From Bacteroidota bacterium (lineage in GTDB: Bacteria > Bacteroidota > Bacteroidia > Chitinophagales > Chitinophagaceae): 43,132 nt of DNA. The notes under the pieces were generated by a model that saw only the letters and a program-made list of their open reading frames with translations, had not been told where the DNA came from and made no database searches. The translations under genes and the position numbers were made by a program. Positions 5,683 through 16,594 of this stretch are shown here, in pieces; the stretch's first letter is position 1, and each line of letters begins with the position of its first letter. The DNA lies in NCBI GenBank assembly GCA_013288745.1, contig JABDBG010000012.1:1-43132 (forward strand), read 5' to 3'.

Positions 5683-6414
5683 TTATCCTAATGTTTTCTT
5701 ATTGATATTTTCAAAGAAATAACTGCGGTAAGTATCGCCCAGTAAAATTTCTGCTTTGATATTTTTCTTCAATGATATTTTGTTGCCTTCAATACCTGTG
5801 ATACGATCGATCGAAACGATAAAAGATTTGTGTACGCGTATGAACATCGATGGAGGTAATTTGCTTTCTATTTCCTTCATGCTTGAATTCGCCAATGTTC
5901 TTATTCCTTCATGATAGATATAAATATAATTACCGTTACTTTCTATGTAATCAATATCAACTAAATTTATTTTAAGCAGTTTGCCCTTCACTCCCATCTT
6001 CACATAAATATGATCTGCGGCATTTTGTTCTGCTGCCTGATTAGGACTGATGCGCGGCGCCAGCATATTTTCTGCTTTTTGAACAGCTGTTAAAAACCGC
6101 GGAAAAGAAACAGGTTTTAATAAATAATCTACGATATCATTTTCATAGCCCTGCAATGCAAATTCACTGTAGGCAGTTACAAAGATCAGTTTACATTTGC
6201 CCTTTACTGCTTTAGCGATATCCAAACCGGATACATCTGCCATCTGGATATCGGAGAAGATCAGTTGCACATCGTTGCCTTCATTGATATATAACAGTGC
6301 CTCTACAGGATCAGTAGTGGTTTTAATTACATTTAAGGTCGGTATCTGTTTTGCAAAATGTTGCAATAATTCAACCGCATGTAATTCATCATCGACTATT
6401 AGGCAATTGATCAT
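5683..6414 (-). CDS. LytTR-type response regulator
   Basis: A 243-residue two-domain regulator. The receiver domain (about 1-120) has the acidic pair DD at 8-9, phospho-acceptor Asp55 (FSDIQM), Thr80 and Lys100 (LLKPVSF). The C-terminal LytTR DNA-binding domain (about 135-240) contains YIESNGNYIYIYHEG and FIRVHKSFIV, as in LytR/AlgR proteins. It is expected to be phosphorylated by the kinase encoded 30 bp upstream and to bind direct repeats near target promoters. It is the last gene of a same-strand block that includes the RiPP locus, so control of the precursor peptides is a reasonable inference, but such pairs are common in Bacteroidota and the adjacency could be coincidental. Confidence 0.93.
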   Translation of the reverse strand: MINCLIVDDELHAVELLQHFAKQIPTLNVIKTTTDPVEALLYINEGNDVQLIFSDIQMADVSGLDIAKAVKGKCKLIFVTAYSEFALQGYENDIVDYLLKPVSFPRFLTAVQKAENMLAPRISPNQAAEQNAADHIYVKMGVKGKLLKINLVDIDYIESNGNYIYIYHEGIRTLANSSMKEIESKLPPSMFIRVHKSFIVSIDRITGIEGNKISLKKNIKAEILLGDTYRSYFFENINKKTLG

Positions 6415-6444: not shown

Positions 6445-7527
6445 TTAAATATTACTATCTATTGTTAACTCTACCTTATAGAATACGCCATCATCACCCG
6501 TAACAAGACTGAATTTATCTCCATATGAATGCTGCAGGCGTTTTTTTACATTGGCCAGCCCTATTCCGGTGCTTGGTTCCTTCATTCCCAGTTTTATTTT
6601 ATTCACTGTTTCATAGCGTATGATACCATCAACTACGGTTAATTTTATTTTAGCAGGATATTCAGAAATATGCACGGCTCCGTGTTTGAATATGTTTTCT
6701 GCAAAAGTGATCAGCACCAATGGAAGCATCGGCACATTCTCAATGTCGCCGCTAACTTCAAAATCCAGGTACATACTTTTCGGAAACCTGAGGCGGTTTA
6801 TTTTGATCACATTTTCTAAATGTCCTATTTCATCAGTTAATAAGGTCTGTTTTCCCGCAGTATGCTGCTGATGCGATGTTAGTGCATACCGCATGATATC
6901 TGAAAGCGTTAATATGCCTCCGGCAAGATCAAGGTTATAAGGAACCATCTTTGCATAAAACAAATTAAGGGTATTGTATAAAAAGTGAGGATTGATCTGA
7001 TTTTGTAAAAAAGTAAGTTCGCTTTGTATGCTCTCTGTTTTTAAAGCGGAGAACTGTCTTTCTTGTTCTAAAGCAAGTTCGCCTTGTTCAATTATACTTT
7101 TGTTCAACGCTCTTGTATTTATCCAAAGACAATAACACACATATAAAGGTGTATTTGTAAAATAGTAAAAAATAGACCGCGGTAAAATACCAATAAAGGA
7201 AACAGGAGTTCCATTATCTGTATGGGTTAGCTCATAACCCGGGGAAATATAATCATACAATCTTAACTGGTAGATGCGCAAATAATTGTAAACGAAAAAA
7301 AGAAAAAAAACGACTATGAAGAATTCCCAGTATCTACCTTTAGCTAAAAGTTTAGGATTAAGGAAATTGGCTATAAAATAAAAAAGGCAGGCCAACAGTC
7401 CATAGGATGTTAGTCCTGCCAAAGTCGATCTGATGGTGTAACTGATAATTAATCCTTCGATATTAGCAATTACATAAAAGGCCAACCAGCATAAAGTGTG
7501 TAATAATATTCTTTTTATAATTTTCAT
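6445..7527 (-). CDS. LytS-like sensor histidine kinase
   Basis: A 360-residue membrane kinase. The N-terminal half holds about four hydrophobic helices (near residues 8-30, 38-57, 68-86 and 112-135). A short coiled coil (about 140-165) leads to the His_kinase box QINPHFLYNTLNLF with the phospho-accepting His. The C-terminal HATPase region has the N-box-like FAENIFKHG and the G-box GIGLANVKKRL. It lacks periplasmic sensor domains, so the signal may be sensed in the membrane. It is followed 30 bp later by its LytTR partner. The 140 bp upstream separate it from precursor peptide 1 and contain no clear terminator, so read-through from the RiPP genes is possible. Confidence 0.93.
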   Translation of the reverse strand: MKIIKRILLHTLCWLAFYVIANIEGLIISYTIRSTLAGLTSYGLLACLFYFIANFLNPKLLAKGRYWEFFIVVFFLFFVYNYLRIYQLRLYDYISPGYELTHTDNGTPVSFIGILPRSIFYYFTNTPLYVCYCLWINTRALNKSIIEQGELALEQERQFSALKTESIQSELTFLQNQINPHFLYNTLNLFYAKMVPYNLDLAGGILTLSDIMRYALTSHQQHTAGKQTLLTDEIGHLENVIKINRLRFPKSMYLDFEVSGDIENVPMLPLVLITFAENIFKHGAVHISEYPAKIKLTVVDGIIRYETVNKIKLGMKEPSTGIGLANVKKRLQHSYGDKFSLVTGDDGVFYKVELTIDSNI

Positions 7528-7667: not shown

Positions 7668-7814
7668 TTAGCGTGTTCCCGGTGGTGGCACAGTATCTTG
7701 TACAGTTCCCGCATTAGTCTTTCCTCCACCAATGATCTTAACCATGTTTACAACACTTAATTTTTTGACAGTTTTTTTCTGCAAATCTAATTTTCGGTTG
7801 TTAGCTTGTTTCAT
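7668..7814 (-). CDS. RiPP precursor peptide 1, class I lanthipeptide-type leader, Cys-free core
   Basis: A 48-residue peptide. The leader contains KLDLQKKTVKKLSVVNM, which fits the K-L-x-L-x-K-x-T-[IV]-x-x-L pattern of Bacteroidota class I lanthipeptide leaders. It ends at a double-glycine site (IIGG, residues 27-30). Cleavage after Gly30 would release an 18-residue core, GKTNAGTVQDTVPPPGTR, with four Thr, no Ser and no Cys. The first four codons (MKQA) and most of the leader match precursor 2, so the two genes are a tandem duplication (starts 210 bp apart). The LanB, the C39 exporter and the adaptor are encoded just upstream on the same strand. Being shorter than 50 codons, it is easily missed by gene finders. 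Its function (antimicrobial, signal or other) is unknown. Confidence 0.85.
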   Translation of the reverse strand: MKQANNRKLDLQKKTVKKLSVVNMVKIIGGGKTNAGTVQDTVPPPGTR

Positions 7815-7883
7815 ATAAATTATCGTTTTCCAAGGTTAAGGACTATAGGTAATCTAGGTATATTGTATTTCTATTAATTAGTA

Positions 7884-8024
7884 TTAACGTGTTCCTGATG
7901 GTGGTGGCGTTGTAGCCGGTGCACTAGCTGCTCCTCCTTGAATTTGAGCCATGTTAGCAACACTTAATTTTTTGATAGTTTTTTTCTGCAAATCTAATTT
8001 TTGGTTGTTGTTAGCTTGTTTCAT
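7884..8024 (-). CDS. RiPP precursor peptide 2, class I lanthipeptide-type leader, Cys-free core
   Basis: A 46-residue peptide. The leader segment KLDLQKKTIKKLSVANM is almost identical to that of precursor 1 and is followed by AQIQGG (GG at 30-31). Cleavage after Gly31 would give the 15-residue core AASAPATTPPPSGTR, with two Ser, three Thr and no Cys. Both cores end in a proline run followed by GTR. The leader is far better conserved than the core, which is typical of RiPP precursor families under shared enzyme recognition and diversifying cores. It is the first of the two precursor genes in transcription order, about 145 bp after the HlyD-like gene, with its own likely promoter at 8075-8082. 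Confidence 0.85.
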   Translation of the reverse strand: MKQANNNQKLDLQKKTIKKLSVANMAQIQGGAASAPATTPPPSGTR

Positions 8025-8074
8025 GTTTTTGTTTTGGAGGTTTGTGTTGACTGTTTGTTTGAATTATTACAGTG

Positions 8075-8082
8075 CAAACATA
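8075..8082 (-). promoter_or_regulatory. likely -7 promoter element of the precursor genes
   Basis: On the minus strand TATGTTTG matches the Bacteroidota -7 consensus TAnnTTTG exactly. It lies 50 bp before the ATG of precursor 2. The -33 position holds only a T-rich run and not a good TTTG. A separate promoter would let the two precursors be made in excess of the modification and export proteins, as is usual in RiPP loci. Confidence 0.5.
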
Positions 8083-8169
8083 GCAGGGATACGCTTTTAG
8101 GCATAAAAAATAACACCAATGGGCGTATGATTTGTGTAAACGGGGTTATTCCCTATGTAAACCAGTTTG

Positions 8170-8883
8170 CTATTTGGATAAAAGCCAGGTAATTAGCCTT
8201 TTATCGCTAATAACCATATAACCGGTACCTCTGGCGAGGATTCGAATCGGCAGCAGTTTGCCGTATTCTGTAGTAGTATTTTTATTTAACTTAATGTTTA
8301 TCAATGTATTATGCAAGCTATCCTGTACCGGTTTTGTTACCACCGTTGCAGCAAGACTACCATAATCTTCCTTTGGGAAATTATCTACATTTATGCCAAG
8401 TGATTGTCCCAAATGGATCTTATTGATCGCTGAACCAGGGAAAACACCTTTTACAATATAGGTTTGATTGGCAGGATTAATATTGATCACTTCACTGTCC
8501 TGATCGATCACAGAACCCTTTTCCATCAGCTGTTCTATCGAAACAATACCAGATTCAGGAGCAGTTACTGTATACTGTTTTGCAACTCTTGTATATGTCA
8601 AAAGACTATCTCCTTCAATTACTATCGCTCCATCTTTTACAAATACAGAATCGATCGTAGCGTTTAACGGAACAAAGAGTTGAGCCCGTTCTTTTACTGG
8701 TGTTATTACAACAGTACCTTCTATGATTTCCGGACGCCTGATAAACAGTAAGCCAGCTACCATAAAAACCATTATCAAAAGTAATACCATATTTCCCCAA
8801 CGTAATATCCATTTAGGCGGAGTTCCTAAAATGTCTTTTACTTCATTGTTGGTAAGATTGATATCGTTATTTATTTTTTCCAT
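8170..8883 (-). CDS. short HlyD-like membrane fusion protein of the peptide exporter
   Basis: A 237-residue protein: cytoplasmic N-terminus (1-30), one membrane helix (about 31-48, MVLLLIMVFMVAGLLFI) and a periplasmic part. The segment around 52-90 (EIIEGTVVITP, then SVFVKDGAIVIEGDSLL) and the partner half-motif TAPESGIVSIEQLMEKGSVI form the biotinyl-lipoyl-like domain of HlyD/MFP proteins, and a beta-barrel domain follows. Most HlyD adaptors are near 400 residues because a long helical hairpin separates the two lipoyl halves; here the halves are only about 20 residues apart, so the hairpin is absent. Its start codon overlaps the exporter stop (TAATG), indicating translational coupling. It probably works with the C39 ABC exporter. 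Confidence 0.88.
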   Translation of the reverse strand: MEKINNDINLTNNEVKDILGTPPKWILRWGNMVLLLIMVFMVAGLLFIRRPEIIEGTVVITPVKERAQLFVPLNATIDSVFVKDGAIVIEGDSLLTYTRVAKQYTVTAPESGIVSIEQLMEKGSVIDQDSEVININPANQTYIVKGVFPGSAINKIHLGQSLGINVDNFPKEDYGSLAATVVTKPVQDSLHNTLINIKLNKNTTTEYGKLLPIRILARGTGYMVISDKRLITWLLSK

Positions 8884-11066
8884 TAGCTACCCAGCTCTAA
8901 TTGATTTTTTACTAAGTTGAAATAAGAGTTACGCAATGAAACAAGATCGTCATGTGATCCTTCTTCGATGATCTCTCCGTTTTCCATTACAATTATCTTA
9001 TCGGCATCTTTTACTGTACTAAGGCGGTGTGCAATTACGACAACGGTTTTGCCTTTAAAAAAATTGTTCAGGTTTTCAATAATGATACGTTCATTTTTTG
9101 CATCCAACGCACTTGTTGCTTCATCAAATAATAATATATCCGGATTTTTGTACACCGCGCGTGCAATTAAAATGCGTTGTTTTTGTCCGGCACTCAACCC
9201 CATTCCATTCTGCCCTATCTTAGTATTATATCCCAATGGCAATTCAGTAATAAACTCATGGATATTGGCTATCCTGCTGGCATTCAGCAAAGCTTCCGTA
9301 TCAATTACCTCCTCGCCTATTCCAATATTATACGCGATGGTATCATTAAAAATATATCCGTCTTGCATCACAGCGCCACATTTTTCGCGCCACATACTAT
9401 GTGCAATAGTAGCGATAGAATCTTTAGCAATTAAAATTTCTCCCGCCGAAGGTTCGTAAAATTTCAATAATAATTTCATTAAAGTTGTCTTACCACTTCC
9501 GCTCGATCCAACGATCGCAGTTACTTTTTTATATGGGATGATCAAATTAATATTATCGATCGTTGGCTTCAGTGCTGCGGTACCATCGTAACTAAAAGAA
9601 ACATCTTTTAAAGAAATATCACCGTCAGTGATCGATGATATTTTTTCATCGTTTATATTTTCTTCATCCCGTTTATTGTGAATCTCGTTGATGCGGGCAA
9701 TACTTAAACGTGCATTTTGCCATAGCTCCGTAAACTCTACAAGCTGCAGTATCGGCGAGTTTAATTGCCCGATGATATAGGATACGGATAACATCACACC
9801 CAATGATATCTGTCCTTCTATTACCAGCTTAGCCGCTAAAAAAGAAACGATGATATTTTTTAATTCATTGATCAACGATGCGCCGCTGGTCTGCATTTGC
9901 TTGATCCGTAAACCTTTTAGATTTATTTTAAACAGCTTTGCCTGAAGGTCTTCCCACTGCCATCTTTTTTTTGTGCTGGCATTGTGCAGTTTTATTTCCT
10001 GCATACCATATATCAGTTCAAGATTTTTTTCCTGGTTCTGTGCTAACTGATCAAAGCGTTTATAATCGAGCAATGCATTTTGTTTCATGAACAAAAACAC
10101 CCAGATGAAATATAAAATACTGCCTGCTACAAAAACGGCAAATATCAGTGGGTTATAAATAAATAACACTACACTAAAAACCAAAATATTAATAAAAGAA
10201 AAAGCAACATTTACCGTACCCGATGTAAGAAATGTTTCTACGCGCTGATGGTCTTGTATACGTTGCAGAATATCGCCCGTCATCTTTACATCAAAAAAAC
10301 CTAAAGGCAATTTCATCAATTTGATAAAAAAATCTGACAATAAATTAATATTGATGCGGGTACTTAAATGCATCAATATATAACCACGCAAAACTTCCAC
10401 ACTTGTTTTACCAAGAAATAATAACAGCTGAGCCAGTAACATGAGGTAAATGAAACTTAAATTATTATACCGTATCCCTTTATCTACGATCGCCTGCGTG
10501 ATGAACGGAAATATAAGCTGGATAAGGCTCTCAGCCACTAACCCTAATATCAGCTGAATTAAAAGCTGTTTATATTGTAAAAGGTATTTGTATATAAATG
10601 ACAATCCGCCCGTTTGCTTTTGCTGATCAACTGCTACTTCATTAAAATCAGGTGTAATTTCAAGCGATAAGATCACACCTTCAACACCATCTGCGGCCCA
10701 GCCTTTTAAAAATTCGGCTTTTGTATATTTAATAATTCCATGTGCAGGATCCGACACATACACTTTATTTTTTGTGATCTTATAAATAACAATAAAATGG
10801 CGCTGGTACCAATAAGCAATACAAGGCATCGGTACTTCAGTTGATAAGTCCTCGTAAGATAGTTTTGCACCGATCGTTCTGAACCCTAATTTTTCTGCCG
10901 CTTCGCTTATCCCTAAAAAATTACTGCCGAGCCTTGTAACATGTGTTAGCTGGCGCAGGTATTCCAACGAAAATTTCTTTCCGTAATATTCACAGATGAT
11001 ACGAAGGCAAGTTGGACCGCAATCCATTTCGTCGTATTGTCTGTAATGTGGAAACCTTTTTATCAT
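8883..11066 (-). CDS. C39 peptidase-containing ABC exporter (LanT/bacteriocin exporter type)
   Basis: A 727-residue ABC half-transporter with a fused protease. The N-terminal C39 peptidase domain (1-135) has the catalytic Cys16 in DEMDCGPTC, His90 in YQRHFIV and Asp106 in DPAHG, so it looks active rather than a degenerate C39-like domain. The transmembrane region (about 155-440) has six helices. The ATPase domain (about 480-720) shows Walker A GSSGSGKTT, signature LSAGQKQR, Walker B ILLFDEATSALD and the switch His in IAHRLS. It should cut leaders after the GG site of the two precursors and export the cores. It lies 22 bp after the LanB gene and overlaps the adaptor start by one base. Confidence 0.95.
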   Translation of the reverse strand: MIKRFPHYRQYDEMDCGPTCLRIICEYYGKKFSLEYLRQLTHVTRLGSNFLGISEAAEKLGFRTIGAKLSYEDLSTEVPMPCIAYWYQRHFIVIYKITKNKVYVSDPAHGIIKYTKAEFLKGWAADGVEGVILSLEITPDFNEVAVDQQKQTGGLSFIYKYLLQYKQLLIQLILGLVAESLIQLIFPFITQAIVDKGIRYNNLSFIYLMLLAQLLLFLGKTSVEVLRGYILMHLSTRININLLSDFFIKLMKLPLGFFDVKMTGDILQRIQDHQRVETFLTSGTVNVAFSFINILVFSVVLFIYNPLIFAVFVAGSILYFIWVFLFMKQNALLDYKRFDQLAQNQEKNLELIYGMQEIKLHNASTKKRWQWEDLQAKLFKINLKGLRIKQMQTSGASLINELKNIIVSFLAAKLVIEGQISLGVMLSVSYIIGQLNSPILQLVEFTELWQNARLSIARINEIHNKRDEENINDEKISSITDGDISLKDVSFSYDGTAALKPTIDNINLIIPYKKVTAIVGSSGSGKTTLMKLLLKFYEPSAGEILIAKDSIATIAHSMWREKCGAVMQDGYIFNDTIAYNIGIGEEVIDTEALLNASRIANIHEFITELPLGYNTKIGQNGMGLSAGQKQRILIARAVYKNPDILLFDEATSALDAKNERIIIENLNNFFKGKTVVVIAHRLSTVKDADKIIVMENGEIIEEGSHDDLVSLRNSYFNLVKNQLELGS

Positions 11067-11088
11067 TCGGAATTATCTTTTTTAATTT

Positions 11089-14000
11089 TTAAACTTTTTC
11101 GTCGATACCTGTTTTAACAATGGTAGATTGATAATACCGGCTTGCGAAATTATAGATCACCATTTCATGCAATCTTGACTGTGCTTTTATTATCCTGTTC
11201 AACATCATATGGATCAGGCTATTGATAAACTCGTTCAATGGTATTTCCAGTTGATTGGTTTTACTCAGCTGAATTATTTGTGCTGCTATTGTTGAGTATT
11301 GTTCGTTCTTCCTGTACAATATTTCAATGAGTGGAAAAAGTTCGCTTTTGGTTTCATATTCCCTGTTCATTATTTGTTCAATAGCTTGCTTGTGTTCGCG
11401 GAACCTGTCGTTCAATTGAAGCGTTAAAGGTTTGTCTACATTGAATTCAGCAGCAAAAGAATCTTTGAGTGCAGTTAACAACTCAGATTTTTGTTTTAAG
11501 GAGAAGCTGAAACAATTCAACAATTCGTCTATTGCTCTTATTGCCCATACCCATCTTATTTCCTCTCTTGCATCGCCTTCTGTCAGCTCTAACATTTCGA
11601 GTAAGGCAACGCTATCATAATAAAAAAAACTTTCGGCAATGCTGATCGTTTTGCTGCCATATCTTTCCAATTCTCTAACATATACATCAACCTGTTCTTT
11701 CCAGATGAACCTGTTTTCTATAAAAGGCGCAAGGTAAATATTTATCAATCGTATTACTTCTCCGATCTTTTCAATATCGGTCAAATGAAAGCGCAGGCGG
11801 ATATGAAATTCAGGATCGTAATAGCGTATAAAAAAATATTGATCGATCAGGCCCTGGCGCAACAAGTCATCTGCAAGCGGTTTGATAGCTTCGGCTAAAA
11901 TTTTGTCTGCCGTTTTTAACCCACAATACAATTTATAATAAGACCATTCAGATCCCAAAGGAAAAGACTTTTCTACAGATTCATTTTTTTCAGCAGGTGT
12001 AGATAAGAGTACGTTTTTTTCAACAGTTGCTTCTTTAAAAAGTGTAGCAATAAATTGATTGGAATAAATATGCTGTTGTTTATCAGTAACGCCGTTTGCA
12101 GGATAGATAAATTCTTTTAAAATGAAATCGGCTTTCTTTCTAATTGTATTTATCCAAACCGTAACGGACAATTTATCTTCCAGGTTAACAAGCAATTCAT
12201 TATCACCATCCGTTAATACAACATGCTGAGGTAACTGATGAGCCTGTTTAAAAGACAACACATCTTCCATAACAATAGCTTCAGTCTTTATCAGGTGTTT
12301 AATATCCTGTGCGGTAAAATACCATTTTGCCAGAGAGATTATCGTATTCTTATACGTTACCCGTGGCAGAGCAGTATACAACTGATCAATGCTTCCCCAG
12401 GAAAAGCCCAGGCCACTACGGATATCCTGCGTTTGCAGATCGCATAAGAATTGATAAACGGGTAAAGAATTAAAATAGAAATTGTGCGCCGAGCTTAAAC
12501 GTGGAACGATCTGTTTATCCAATCTTTTTGACCGTAAAAAAATAACGCCATTTTTTATTGATATATACAGATCACTTACATCAATTTGCTTTTCGATCGG
12601 CACGGCTGATTGTGCCAGATAAGGTATTTCATATTCGCGGAAGGCAGGACGCAATAATACATTGCCCATTCTGTTTTCGGGTAAATGAATGATCTCAGCA
12701 TATAGAGTGCCTGGTTTATTTTCCTGCTCTTTACTACCTATATCATACAATATTTTATTGATACGTTGATCTGTATGCGCAAACCTTCCTAACAAACAAG
12801 CTGCAGTTGAATTTCCTACGGCATCTACCTGAATAAGATCTTTACCTGTATCAATTATTTTAAATAACATAGACATAGAAGCAGGCAGGTCTTTCCAATC
12901 GGCTTCTATGTCTTTTAGGTCTTCGTCACTTATTTCAATGCTATTATTGGTAAGCTTTGCCTGGAGTTTTTTATGCAACAACTGTTCGATCTTACCCCAG
13001 TTCAGTTGTGTCGCTTCTTTTTTTGCTGGCAAGATAAGATCATCGATCAATGGTGTTAAATATCCTGCATCATTATTAATGTACCCTATACCTGTTTCAG
13101 TATCCAATGCCTGTAACAATGGCATTTCTTCATCACCATATTTATCATAAAAGTCTCTTGAAAAAGATGCAAGGTTTTTATTTTTATAGGGTGTCGATAA
13201 TTTATTTAAAATAGTCAGCGCATCCTGCAATTGATCGTGAATATTTACATCGACACTTCCTGTTGTAATTTTTTTTGTACTGTCTAATTGAAATATTTTG
13301 CTTTCATCGGCCACAGGTTCTACTTCATTTAATAATGTTATGATATCCCTGTAAGCAGTTACATGATCAGATTTTAAGGATGCTATAGCCTGTAATTTTT
13401 GTTGTACGGTAAGCAGTACACGCAAAATGTTTTCTACATCAGGCTGTTGTTTGGCTATTTTTTCAAGCGTTGTTATTATCTGATCCAGAAGGCCATTACC
13501 TGTTAACCTGGGTTCTAACTCACTTGTAATTACCTGTGCGTCTATCAGGTCATATACAAACGCTTTAGCTTCTTCTTCATTGATATCTTCATCAACGATC
13601 AAAGTTATCAGTTCGTTTATCTTTTTACCGTTTTTCGCTGCTTCTGTGATCTTTGTCAAGTACTCACTTTGTTGAACGGCCGTTATCTGGTATTTCTTAA
13701 ATCCATCAACAAATAAATATTCAACATACCTTAATTCATCTCCTATTTTGTAAGCGCTATTATTTACATAGTAGGTCAATAATTCTGTAATGCCCGGCGC
13801 AGTTGCTATTTTTTGTGCCAGCATACACAGGTAATGCATGTCTAAGCGAATATGCCTGTCAACATTTTCATCCAGTATTATTGGTGCCGCATTATTTTTC
13901 CATTCAAGAAAACTACATCCCGAAAACAGTCCAAAAGGCGTACAACGGCTGCTGCTGCGCAGATAATATTTAGTAAGTGTTGCTGTTAGCCTGTCAACTT

Positions 14001-14199
14001 TTTTTGCATTGATATCACCGTTCTTCCATTTAATACATTCATCGTACACAACAGGAGAAGCGATATACAATGATTCTAAAAATATAGGGTCAGATAATAA
14101 AACAGGCAATGTTTGCGCGGTCAATTCCCCCGGCAACGGTAAACGTGGCGCCCTTAGCACCAGGTCAGGATGAAAATAATATGTGGTCTTACTATTCAT
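11089..14199 (-). CDS. full-length class I lanthipeptide dehydratase (LanB)
   Basis: A 1036-residue enzyme, normal length for a fused LanB. The N-terminal glutamylation domain (about 1-720) carries the family hallmark RSSSRCTPFGLFSG at 81-94. The C-terminal elimination domain (about 745-1020) has FIRYYDPEFHIRLRF, YVRELERYG and SLIHMMLNR, where the conserved Arg and His needed for glutamate elimination in NisB-type enzymes appear to be present. Such enzymes use glutamyl-tRNA to glutamylate Ser/Thr and then eliminate glutamate, giving dehydroalanine or dehydrobutyrine. The likely substrates are the two precursors at 7668-8024. No LanC cyclase is encoded nearby. It starts 1 bp after the receptor stop (TAATATG), so the two are probably co-translated. 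Confidence 0.95.
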   Translation of the reverse strand: MNSKTTYYFHPDLVLRAPRLPLPGELTAQTLPVLLSDPIFLESLYIASPVVYDECIKWKNGDINAKKVDRLTATLTKYYLRSSSRCTPFGLFSGCSFLEWKNNAAPIILDENVDRHIRLDMHYLCMLAQKIATAPGITELLTYYVNNSAYKIGDELRYVEYLFVDGFKKYQITAVQQSEYLTKITEAAKNGKKINELITLIVDEDINEEEAKAFVYDLIDAQVITSELEPRLTGNGLLDQIITTLEKIAKQQPDVENILRVLLTVQQKLQAIASLKSDHVTAYRDIITLLNEVEPVADESKIFQLDSTKKITTGSVDVNIHDQLQDALTILNKLSTPYKNKNLASFSRDFYDKYGDEEMPLLQALDTETGIGYINNDAGYLTPLIDDLILPAKKEATQLNWGKIEQLLHKKLQAKLTNNSIEISDEDLKDIEADWKDLPASMSMLFKIIDTGKDLIQVDAVGNSTAACLLGRFAHTDQRINKILYDIGSKEQENKPGTLYAEIIHLPENRMGNVLLRPAFREYEIPYLAQSAVPIEKQIDVSDLYISIKNGVIFLRSKRLDKQIVPRLSSAHNFYFNSLPVYQFLCDLQTQDIRSGLGFSWGSIDQLYTALPRVTYKNTIISLAKWYFTAQDIKHLIKTEAIVMEDVLSFKQAHQLPQHVVLTDGDNELLVNLEDKLSVTVWINTIRKKADFILKEFIYPANGVTDKQQHIYSNQFIATLFKEATVEKNVLLSTPAEKNESVEKSFPLGSEWSYYKLYCGLKTADKILAEAIKPLADDLLRQGLIDQYFFIRYYDPEFHIRLRFHLTDIEKIGEVIRLINIYLAPFIENRFIWKEQVDVYVRELERYGSKTISIAESFFYYDSVALLEMLELTEGDAREEIRWVWAIRAIDELLNCFSFSLKQKSELLTALKDSFAAEFNVDKPLTLQLNDRFREHKQAIEQIMNREYETKSELFPLIEILYRKNEQYSTIAAQIIQLSKTNQLEIPLNEFINSLIHMMLNRIIKAQSRLHEMVIYNFASRYYQSTIVKTGIDEKV

Positions 14200-14200
14200 A

Positions 14201-16594
14201 TTAATTTTTCATTCGTTTATTGATATCGGCTATCGCACTTGCTCTTGCTGCTGCCTGTTTAACATTTTTATTCCCAAATTTATAAGTGAATTGCAATTTT
14301 ATAAACCTTGATTCCGATTTGTAATCTACCGTCTCATTTATTCCCATGAAATTAGTACCATAGTTGATAGACTCTGTATTAAAAATATCTGTTACTGAAA
14401 GTGCCAGTTTTCCATTCTCGTGCAGTATAATTTTTTGAAAACCTGCATCCATTCTGAAAGCAGGTTTTATCTGGTAAAATCCATAAGGAATAGTAGAATG
14501 ATAATAAGTAGCTATTTCAGCGGCCCATCCTTTACGAAATTTAAATGTATTTTGTAATTGTCCCTGGTACACCCATCCCATATTATTATTATTTACAACA
14601 CCATTTGTAGAAGCTTCGCTATACGCTATATAATCTGCTTCGCTTGATACATTAACGTTCCAGAATTTATAAATATCTCCGCCCCAGTTGGCAGAAAAGC
14701 TAACTGCATTTTGTGTACTGATATTTCCGGAAACGATCCCTACAGAATTATTATTTCCTGTTACAACAATAGATGCGATAGCGTTGGTAGCGACTGAATA
14801 ACTGGCTGCAAGGTTCAATGCTTTTTTATACGTATAAGTAAAACTAAAATTGTTATCCAGCTGTGGCCTTAAATAAGGATTACCTGCAAAAAAGCTGTAT
14901 TCACTCATATATACTATAAAAGGATTGATCATATCAAAATCGGGACGTTGAATACTTCTATGATAACCGATACTAAACACATTGTTTTGATTTTTTGTGA
15001 ATTGCAGGCGCAGGTTTGGGAAGAGGCCAAAATAACTTGAATCATGCACCTGATTCGTTGTTACAAGGTTACTGCGGGTTACGGTTTCCTCGCCCCTCAC
15101 ACCTATTGTTAGTTCATATTTACCAATGGTTCTGTCGTAAGAAATATATGCTGCATTTATATTTTCGTTATAAACAAAATGATTGGTACGAGTTGTGTCT
15201 ACCAGCCAGTCTGCCCCATTTTTATATTGCCACAATACATTATTATCGGTTGCTGTATAAGTTGTTTTTAAACCCGCGTCTATCCTGCCATATTTTTTAA
15301 AAGGATTACTATAATCTGCGGCAAAAGAATATACATTATTATTTCCGGGGGAAGAATCTCTAAGCGCGTAGCTGGGCTGGTATTCAATATTATCTATCGT
15401 GGTATAAGTAGTAAGATAATTATCACTCCATTTTTTATTATAATTAAAATAATCTGCGTTCAGGGTCAGTGTCTTTCCTAAAGTATCAAACGAAGTTTTA
15501 TAATAGGCATTTACGCTTGCAGTAGAGAATACCGCATGGCCGCCCATTGCTACGGTAGAAAAGCTATCTACCAAAGGAGCTGCATGCGTAAGCGTTATAT
15601 TATCTATAGAATTACGGCTCCTGAAATTAGTATAGCCTGAAAATAAAACACCGGCAGTACTAGTTTTATTGATCGCATAATCGGCTCCTAATTTATAATC
15701 ATTGTTATACCGTTTACGTTCTTCCTGATTATTTTCCATGATCTGATCAGTTGGCGTTAACACGTGATCAGTTATTATATTGTAAAATTGCCGATTGTGT
15801 TCATAATTATAATTACCGTAAATATTTATTCTATTCTTTCGGTAGTTGAGGCTAAGTCCTCCATTATAGCGCAGATCATCACCCGCTCCTATTGCTCCGG
15901 TAAATACACCGTTCACACCATAACTATTATTCTTCAATAATTTAATATCGATAACACTTTGCGCATCTGCATCATATTTTGCAGATGGGTTAGGAATAAT
16001 TTGTACTTTATCTATGTCCGTTGCAGGCATATCTGTCAACATTTGCTTTAGTTCAGCACCCGTTAAATATGTTTGTCTGCCATTGATCAGTACCAAAGTC
16101 GTTTTACCTCTGAAAGTAAATCCGTTAAAGTTTTCCGTAACACCCGGTGCGCGTTTGATCACTTCGTAAGCGCTACCATTTGTTGCAACAGGGCTCTGCG
16201 CCACGTTCAACGTAATTTGATTGGGGTTAAATTCCACAAAAGGTTTTTTACCTGTTACAATCACCTGGTTAAGGTTTTTATCTGAATGATTTAATGCTAT
16301 TGTATCCAATAAAGTATTAATAGTATGATCCGCAATTTCTACTCCAACGGTATATGTTTCATATCCAACATAACTAACAGTTAATATATATTGTCCGTTT
16401 GTTACACCGCTGAAACTAAAAGAGCCATTTTCCTTTGTAACAGTTCTGCTGATCGTGCTGTCTTTTATATTTTGCAAACTAATGTTTGCAGCAGAAAGCG
16501 TATTATTTGTTGCCTTATCAACAATTACTGAAGCTATCTGTGCATTGGCACTTGCGGCAAGTAAAATAAGTATATATAGGCACGTCAATCTCAT
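14201..16594 (-). CDS. outer-membrane beta-barrel receptor (TonB-receptor type) leading the RiPP operon
   Basis: A 797-residue protein. A signal peptide (MRLTCLYILILLAASANA) is followed by a carboxypeptidase-regulatory-like domain (about 20-105, with the typical NGSFSFSGVTNGQYILTVSY), then a plug-like domain (about 115-220, IKRAPGVTENFNGFTFRGK) and a large barrel. This architecture is typical of the outer-membrane beta-barrel family common in Bacteroidota. As first gene of an operon with LanB, exporter and adaptor, it may carry the peptide across the outer membrane, take up a related peptide, or serve in self-recognition; the sequence does not say which. A promoter-like element lies just before the start. 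Confidence 0.9.
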   Translation of the reverse strand: MRLTCLYILILLAASANAQIASVIVDKATNNTLSAANISLQNIKDSTISRTVTKENGSFSFSGVTNGQYILTVSYVGYETYTVGVEIADHTINTLLDTIALNHSDKNLNQVIVTGKKPFVEFNPNQITLNVAQSPVATNGSAYEVIKRAPGVTENFNGFTFRGKTTLVLINGRQTYLTGAELKQMLTDMPATDIDKVQIIPNPSAKYDADAQSVIDIKLLKNNSYGVNGVFTGAIGAGDDLRYNGGLSLNYRKNRINIYGNYNYEHNRQFYNIITDHVLTPTDQIMENNQEERKRYNNDYKLGADYAINKTSTAGVLFSGYTNFRSRNSIDNITLTHAAPLVDSFSTVAMGGHAVFSTASVNAYYKTSFDTLGKTLTLNADYFNYNKKWSDNYLTTYTTIDNIEYQPSYALRDSSPGNNNVYSFAADYSNPFKKYGRIDAGLKTTYTATDNNVLWQYKNGADWLVDTTRTNHFVYNENINAAYISYDRTIGKYELTIGVRGEETVTRSNLVTTNQVHDSSYFGLFPNLRLQFTKNQNNVFSIGYHRSIQRPDFDMINPFIVYMSEYSFFAGNPYLRPQLDNNFSFTYTYKKALNLAASYSVATNAIASIVVTGNNNSVGIVSGNISTQNAVSFSANWGGDIYKFWNVNVSSEADYIAYSEASTNGVVNNNNMGWVYQGQLQNTFKFRKGWAAEIATYYHSTIPYGFYQIKPAFRMDAGFQKIILHENGKLALSVTDIFNTESINYGTNFMGINETVDYKSESRFIKLQFTYKFGNKNVKQAAARASAIADINKRMKN

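Follow-up and report, generated by a model that had tools for sequence, protein, structure and literature searches.

Gene content of the locus

The stretch of DNA analysed here (the window; 43,132 nucleotides, positions 1 to 43,132 of contig JABDBG010000012.1 in assembly GCA_013288745.1 of a Bacteroidota bacterium of the Chitinophagaceae) carries a putative cluster for ribosomally synthesised and post-translationally modified peptides (RiPPs), in which a class I lanthipeptide dehydratase (LanB) is encoded together with two cysteine-free precursor peptides, A1 and A2, and in which no LanC cyclase was found. The cluster consists of eight genes, all on the minus strand and all with open reading frames. 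The first gene in the run (14201..16594) encodes an outer-membrane beta-barrel protein with a carboxypeptidase-regulatory-like N-terminus (PF14905, 4.5e-91; PF13620), and is followed by the full-length LanB of 1036 aa (11089..14199), a C39 peptidase-ABC exporter (8883..11066; PF03412, PF00664, PF00005), a short HlyD-type adaptor of 237 aa (8170..8883; PF13437, 6.3e-06), A1 (7884..8024), A2 (7668..7814), a sensor histidine kinase (HK; 6445..7527; PF06580, 4.2e-17) and a LytTR-type response regulator (RR; 5683..6414; PF00072, PF04397). The two regulatory genes, which had been overlooked in the original prediction made from the sequence of the window, lie directly downstream of the precursors on the same strand, A1 and A2 standing directly before the kinase gene. 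An open reading frame (ORF) matching the same profile as the beta-barrel protein also preceded LanB at two loci of the survey described below (L070 and L071).

The two precursors are 69% identical and both leaders terminate in GG (IQGG in A1, IIGG in A2). The cores, set by the GG rule, are AASAPATTPPPSGTR for A1 and GKTNAGTVQDTVPPPGTR for A2; they contain five and four Ser/Thr, respectively, and no Cys, and share the C-terminal end PPP(S)GTR. One Lys is present in the A2 core and none in the A1 core, and A2 has no Ser. A1 was matched by the NCBIfam class I lanthipeptide leader model NF038153 (22.2 bits, cut-off 22), and A2 scored below the cut-off (15.4 bits). The description of both precursors as Cys-free peptides with class I leaders and GG sites could hence be upheld for the GG sites and the absence of Cys; for the leader, the cut-off of the model was passed by A1 only. 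Being Cys-free, A1 and A2 would be unable to form lanthionines from their own residues even with a LanC present.

Catalytic residues of LanB and of the exporter

The window LanB gave near-complete matches to the glutamylation domain (Lant_dehydr_N; PF04738, 471 bits) and the elimination domain (Lant_dehydr_C; PF14028, 234 bits), and matched solved dehydratase structures, NisB among them. It keeps counterparts of NisB R14, Y80, R83, R87, T89, D121, D299, R784, H961 and E975. These equivalences were taken from alignments of the window LanB with NisB, except for those of R14, H961 and E975, which fell outside the pairwise alignment and were assigned by motif and invariance. Counterparts of R464, R786, E823 and R826 (NisB numbering) are present as well. 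The exporter retains its peptidase triad (C16, H90 and D106), and the claims of a full-length LanB with intact motifs and of an exporter with an intact triad were both borne out. In NisB, dehydration is lost in the Y80F and H961A variants and lowered by changes at R14, R83 and R87 (PMC4341554).

The window LanB might alternatively be an enzyme akin to the peptide aminoacyl-tRNA ligases (PEARLs), and would then add a residue to the peptide instead of dehydrating it; LanB-like enzymes of such a kind do exist (PMC11962472). The window LanB nevertheless contains PF14028 together with the residues for elimination, on which grounds PEARL chemistry was rejected and is considered very improbable. PEARLs are not known to have an elimination domain.

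Search for LanC in the window, the genome and related genomes

As originally stated, no LanC is encoded in the window: tblastn with 60 LanC queries detected neither a LanC nor a remnant of one (best non-fusion match, E 0.096; one query, a LanB-LanC fusion, matched the window LanB), and a LanC hidden Markov model returned none of the window ORFs of at least 25 aa. The searches of the complete genome proposed earlier, for a LanC and for further precursors with the same leader, could be carried out on an assembly of 84 contigs that is 71.67% complete; within it there was no match to PF05147 (LANC_like), no second LanB (PF14028) and no further NF038153 leader peptide. Within the genus, LanC-like matches were obtained in three of 59 genomes (weak in one case), and LanB was found in three of 93 genomes including that of the window (E 1e-20); the two other carriers have LanC within the same cluster.

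The genome-wide check for LanC was extended to 22 genomes of at least 96% completeness, out of 24 surveyed genomes that carry a LanC-less LanB; G001 (which has a LanC at L043) and G629 (62% complete) were left out. PF05147 matches were absent in 13 of the 22 genomes and present in nine, three of the latter being weak, and two LanC-bearing control genomes gave LanC matches as expected. These data bear on the explanation that the missing 28% of the window's genome encodes a LanC or else a partner peptide with Cys, the locus being one part of an ordinary class I system split over two places. The incompleteness of the assembly and the nine genomes with LanC-like matches elsewhere speak for it; A1 and A2 are nevertheless Cys-free themselves, LanC-like genes are confined to three of the 59 genus genomes, and LanC lies in the cluster in both other LanB carriers of the genus, which makes a split system improbable.

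LanC-bearing relatives and origin of the locus

The cluster of the same-genus genome G1246 (L253) has the order LanB, C39, HlyD, a 51 aa peptide (two Cys), a 169 aa ORF, a 67 aa GG peptide (one Cys), a 471 aa ORF, HK, RR and, directly after the regulator, LanC. A genome of another genus (G253, L031) has the order LanB-C39-HlyD-peptide(three Cys)-HK-RR-LanC. In a FastTree phylogeny of LanB, the nearest neighbours of the window were L070 and L031, both LanC-bearing (support of the join 92, not starred), at 45-48% identity between the window LanB and its nearest LanBs, and the smallest starred set including the window comprised 25 rows, 17 with LanC and eight without. The window LanB lay outside the large LanC-less clade of 18 rows described below, and its membership of that clade was rejected given its nearest rows. 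Because the same-genus cluster of G1246 has the same gene order plus LanC, a loss of LanC is likely, and the simplest reading is that the window lineage lost both LanC and the Cys residues, the cluster having presumably arisen from a conventional LanB-C39-HlyD-A-HK-RR-LanC cluster in this manner.

Such a loss could also mean decay, i.e., LanC and the Cys-bearing peptides would have been lost recently and the remainder would make nothing useful. The LanC-bearing nearest relatives would fit with this, as would the lack of relatives of A1 and A2 with a similar core among 396 genomes of the order (three other genomes matched, chiefly in the leader). Yet all eight genes are open, the residues checked in both LanB domains and in the C39 triad are in place, no LanC remnant is present in the window, and a similar state is kept by other lineages in many genomes. 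Since even the nearest LanBs are only 45-48% identical to that of the window, a recent loss is not indicated, and we regard decay as an improbable explanation.

Survey of LanB loci in Bacteroidota

LanB loci were collected from 294 genomes of the family (33 matching) and 395 genomes of the class (40 matching), the window's genome being counted in both and no more than two candidates being scored in any one genome. Named genomes were scanned as well, and the best 80 of 553 confirmed stretches were added. A total of 160 loci were read, of which 123 were kept (LanB long enough and flanked by 4.5 kb or more on either side, non-duplicate) and 37 dropped. LanC was present within 8 kb at 75 of the 123 loci; at the remaining 48 none was found within 8 kb or within the available stretch, which was shorter for some. 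The presence of LanC changed 15 times on the best tree, and at least 11 changes were forced by starred branches; the number of LanC-less origins is approximate because FastTree joins long branches readily and several such joins were flagged. The window is probably one case among several in which a LanC-less LanB appeared independently in Bacteroidota.

One clade of 18 LanBs had no LanC at any locus, and an HK-RR pair was located within 5 kb at 14 of its 18 loci. All 18 LanBs keep 12 of the 14 checked positions (in window numbering R16, Y78, R81, R85, T87, R472, R801, R803, E843, R846, H997 and E1012), and D120 is kept in 16 of them. Other LanC-less cases with Cys-free candidate peptides were a clade of L048, L051 and L052 and the single rows L041, L096 and L097. 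Over the whole survey, an HK-RR pair was present at 26/48 LanC-less loci compared to 20/75 LanC-bearing loci (p 0.004, uncorrected for the tree).

Peptides at LanC-less loci

That a single ORF of 46-48 aa is Cys-free is unremarkable taken alone; by contrast, Cys was present in 74 of 79 leader-motif peptides from LanC-bearing loci. The p value for this contrast (4e-9) rests on the motif counts of our first peptide finder and ignores relatedness. Built around a single leader motif, this finder overlooked most Cys-free peptides, and it discarded A1 on account of an overlapping, longer antisense ORF. Its 18 Cys-free motif matches at LanC-less loci consisted of 11 that were copies in peptide arrays (L191, L192) or window A2 and of seven others, namely L096, one further array copy and five that are likely noise (L061, L105, L112, L123 and one in L192). 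The arrays (L191:12219-13158 and L192:6301-7273) are tandem repeats of six and five similar Cys-free peptides of 47-48 aa (FSTDPTANTILMTQSS core), which adjoin LanB, HK and RR.

Inspection by eye, which does not provide an unbiased count, revealed short peptides rich in Thr, the majority with PT motifs, adjoining the kinase or LanB at LanC-less loci. Candidates were identified at 12 of the 18 loci of the LanC-less clade, and those of seven loci were Cys-free (L056, L058, L184, L189, L190, L191 and L192). No NCBIfam model matched seven Cys-free or one-Cys peptides of loci other than the window. A profile (A3) was built from ten hand-picked peptides and searched in 251 genomes from the family that includes G371 at an E-value of 0.01, which makes the check independent of a choice by eye at each locus, though the profile itself came from ten such choices. 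Matches were obtained in 53 of the 251 genomes, four of which were sources of A3 rows, and 20 of the other 49 were opened at one locus each, mostly among the best scoring. LanB, HK and RR were present at 20/20 of these loci and LanC at 0/20 within the 14-20 kb read (the contig of L233 begins 166 bases before LanB). Cys was absent from 58 of their 59 A3-matching ORFs, and at 19/20 loci the peptides, often in tandem copies, were encoded between HK and RR. These are not 20 independent events, as a single genus (g171) accounts for 18 of the 20 genomes. In the first locus set, A3 matched LanC-less loci only, nearly all of the matches being its own rows or adjacent copies.

A1 and A2 differ from the peptide family of the 18-row clade in having GG leaders and PPP(S)GTR cores, and in lacking its K..VF.F leader and [DHV]PT core; common to both are Cys-free peptides adjoining an HK and a LytTR regulator and the lack of LanC. 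The proposed survey of LanB neighbourhoods for Cys-free precursors revealed a state that recurs, though not at every LanC-less locus.

Predicted biosynthesis and products

According to the proposed mechanism, the window LanB would bind the LxLxKxTxxxL-type leader of A1 and A2, transfer glutamate from Glu-tRNA onto Thr and Ser of the core and then eliminate it, which would yield dehydrobutyrine (Dhb) and dehydroalanine (Dha). Glutamylation and elimination are expected because both LanB domains are intact and their residues conserved, and no lanthionine would be formed because the cores have no Cys and no LanC was found. The C39 transporter would cleave after GG and export a linear peptide of 15 or 18 residues ending in PPP(S)GTR, as we infer from C39 exporters. 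The adjoining HK and LytTR regulator might sense this peptide or control its production in the manner of an autoinducing peptide system, a step put forward with less confidence. We assign a probability of roughly 0.7 to this reading, i.e., to a functional class I dehydratase cluster in which cyclisation has been lost and which makes linear peptides containing Dhb or Dha. A linear product with dehydro residues had also been suggested originally, and it gains from the recurrence of Cys-free LanC-less loci, the retained residues and the near-complete genomes free of LanC; the locus is not an isolated case. It is best regarded as a class I dehydratase system that, as predicted from its genes, corresponds to the first half of lanthipeptide biosynthesis, and is set apart from class I lanthipeptides because LanC and core Cys, two defining features of these, are both missing.

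The dehydro residues might instead be reactive intermediates that trap an external thiol, the side chain of a Lys, or a nucleophile of the outer membrane or a target. For Dha and Dhb this is chemically possible, and the A2 core offers one Lys; the A1 core has neither Lys nor Cys, though, and no enzyme for such a step is apparent among the eight cluster proteins, so that we judge trapping unlikely, if less so than decay or a split system. Lysinoalanine as a general product was rejected, there being no Lys in the A1 core.

Several observations weigh against the reading of the window as a working cluster for linear peptides, or against parts of it. A distant LanC in the remaining genome is possible at 71.67% completeness. 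The positions D121, D299, E975 and R784 say little on activity because D121A, D299A and E975Q are tolerated in NisB and R784A nearly so (PMC4341554), and the counterpart of D299 was found in 0/18 LanBs of the LanC-less clade (11 gaps) compared to 28/29 of the other LanC-less rows. Conservation of the A1 and A2 cores provides no test since the three matching genomes align chiefly over the leader, and the codons of A1 and A2 (26 identical, five synonymous, 14 with amino-acid changes) give no strong sign of purifying selection. Within the 18-row clade, candidates of five loci contain one Cys (L061, L064, L065, L066 and L068) and six loci have no or a doubtful candidate (L062, L063, L067, L069, L186 and L187); elsewhere, LanC-less loci include one with a Cys-rich peptide (L055) and three with one-Cys candidates (L074, L109 and L178). 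Finally, correction for the tree left no link between the absence of LanC and the HK-RR pair (11 independent pairs, median p 1), and the pair, which also occurs in LanC-bearing relatives and whose excess vanishes on the tree, may hence represent ordinary regulation.

Comparison with known systems

Dehydration of the LanB type without LanC is known from thiopeptides and pyritides, and goadsporin is not known to contain lanthionine. Thiopeptides and pyritides require two Dha plus a separate Lant_dehydr_C-type enzyme for cycloaddition. They differ in this from the window, since A2 has no Ser and PF14028 matched the window LanB alone in the 71.67% complete assembly, and thiopeptide or pyritide chemistry was rejected on these grounds. 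Goadsporin is made with GodF and GodG by Glu-tRNA-dependent dehydration of the LanB type to Dha, and has a putative peptidase-domain ABC exporter (PMC5303826), both features being shared with the system predicted for the window. However, its LanB domains are split and azoles are apparently required first (PMC5303826), whereas no azole enzyme is present among the eight cluster proteins.

Class I lanthipeptides of Bacteroidota combine leaders of the form LxLxKx5L with GG sites and C39 exporters (PMC7268733). The window resembles them in leader motif, GG site, C39 exporter and full-length LanB and differs in the lack of LanC and of Cys in its peptides. Several LanBs occur in Spirosoma linguale and Microscilla marina, only one of which is in a cluster with or near LanC (PMC3091789); they are alike to the window LanB in the absence of LanC, and the parts of that paper available to us draw no tie to Cys-free peptides or a sensor pair. 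In another study, no LanB was found in Bacteroidales (PMC10352776). Precursors were sought near LanC-domain genes in the survey of PMC7268733, which would miss the Cys-free, LanC-less form. More generally, both surveys (PMC7268733, PMC3091789) took LanC genes as their starting point and so leave LanB systems without LanC uncounted. In the literature searched, from which subscription papers were largely absent, we found no account of LanB-only loci with Cys-free peptides in Bacteroidota.

If the products are indeed linear dehydrated peptides, they would add to the RiPPs a type with a simple biosynthesis, which by the A3 profile would occur in 53 of the 251 genomes of one family. The LanC-less loci with LanB and Cys-free peptides, many of which adjoin a sensor gene, suggest an unrecognised type of linear modified peptide, perhaps a signal.

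Putative role as signals

Nisin synthesis genes are accompanied by an adjacent two-component pair, NisRK. As a LanB product, nisin induces its own synthesis (PMC4341554); NisK has been placed in the OmpR family (PMC8895600), so that the kinase and regulator families differ from those of the window, and nisin contains lanthionine rings. A signalling role for linear dehydrated peptides is plausible judging from gene content, and its strongest hint is the location of the peptides between kinase and regulator at 19/20 opened loci. Only tentatively, and as a possibility we lean against, do we advance the broader proposal that LanB-dehydrated, uncyclised Cys-free peptides are secreted signals widespread in Bacteroidota and read by the adjacent HK-LytTR pair, the window being an independent instance of LanC loss. 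If this were true, LanB would be a signal-making enzyme rather than a step towards lantibiotics. Peptide genes between kinase and regulator make peptide signalling in Bacteroidota directly testable.

Other observations at LanB loci

Four full-length LanBs from Arcicella, Pseudarcicella and a Cytophagales metagenome-assembled genome (MAG) form a starred clade (L072, L083, L107 and L111), for which no LanC was found; they lack an HK-RR pair in the surrounding 5 kb, and no peptide is evident in their vicinity. L055 and L057 each have LanB, C39 and HlyD with no LanC nearby; both genomes carry LanC elsewhere, which may act on these loci from there. At L064, L065, L066, L067 and L068, a 102-110 aa protein whose start is signal-like (e.g., MKKLMFSTAAILALSLSAFAGTPE) is encoded about 2-4 kb from LanB, with a larger protein right beside it at L065-L068. 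In a Phycisphaerales MAG (CAIVHJ010000145.1; L136:8390-13042), an open frame of about 1551 aa was matched by the profiles of both LanB (7e-276) and LanC (1.6e-69) and is an apparent dehydratase-cyclase fusion.

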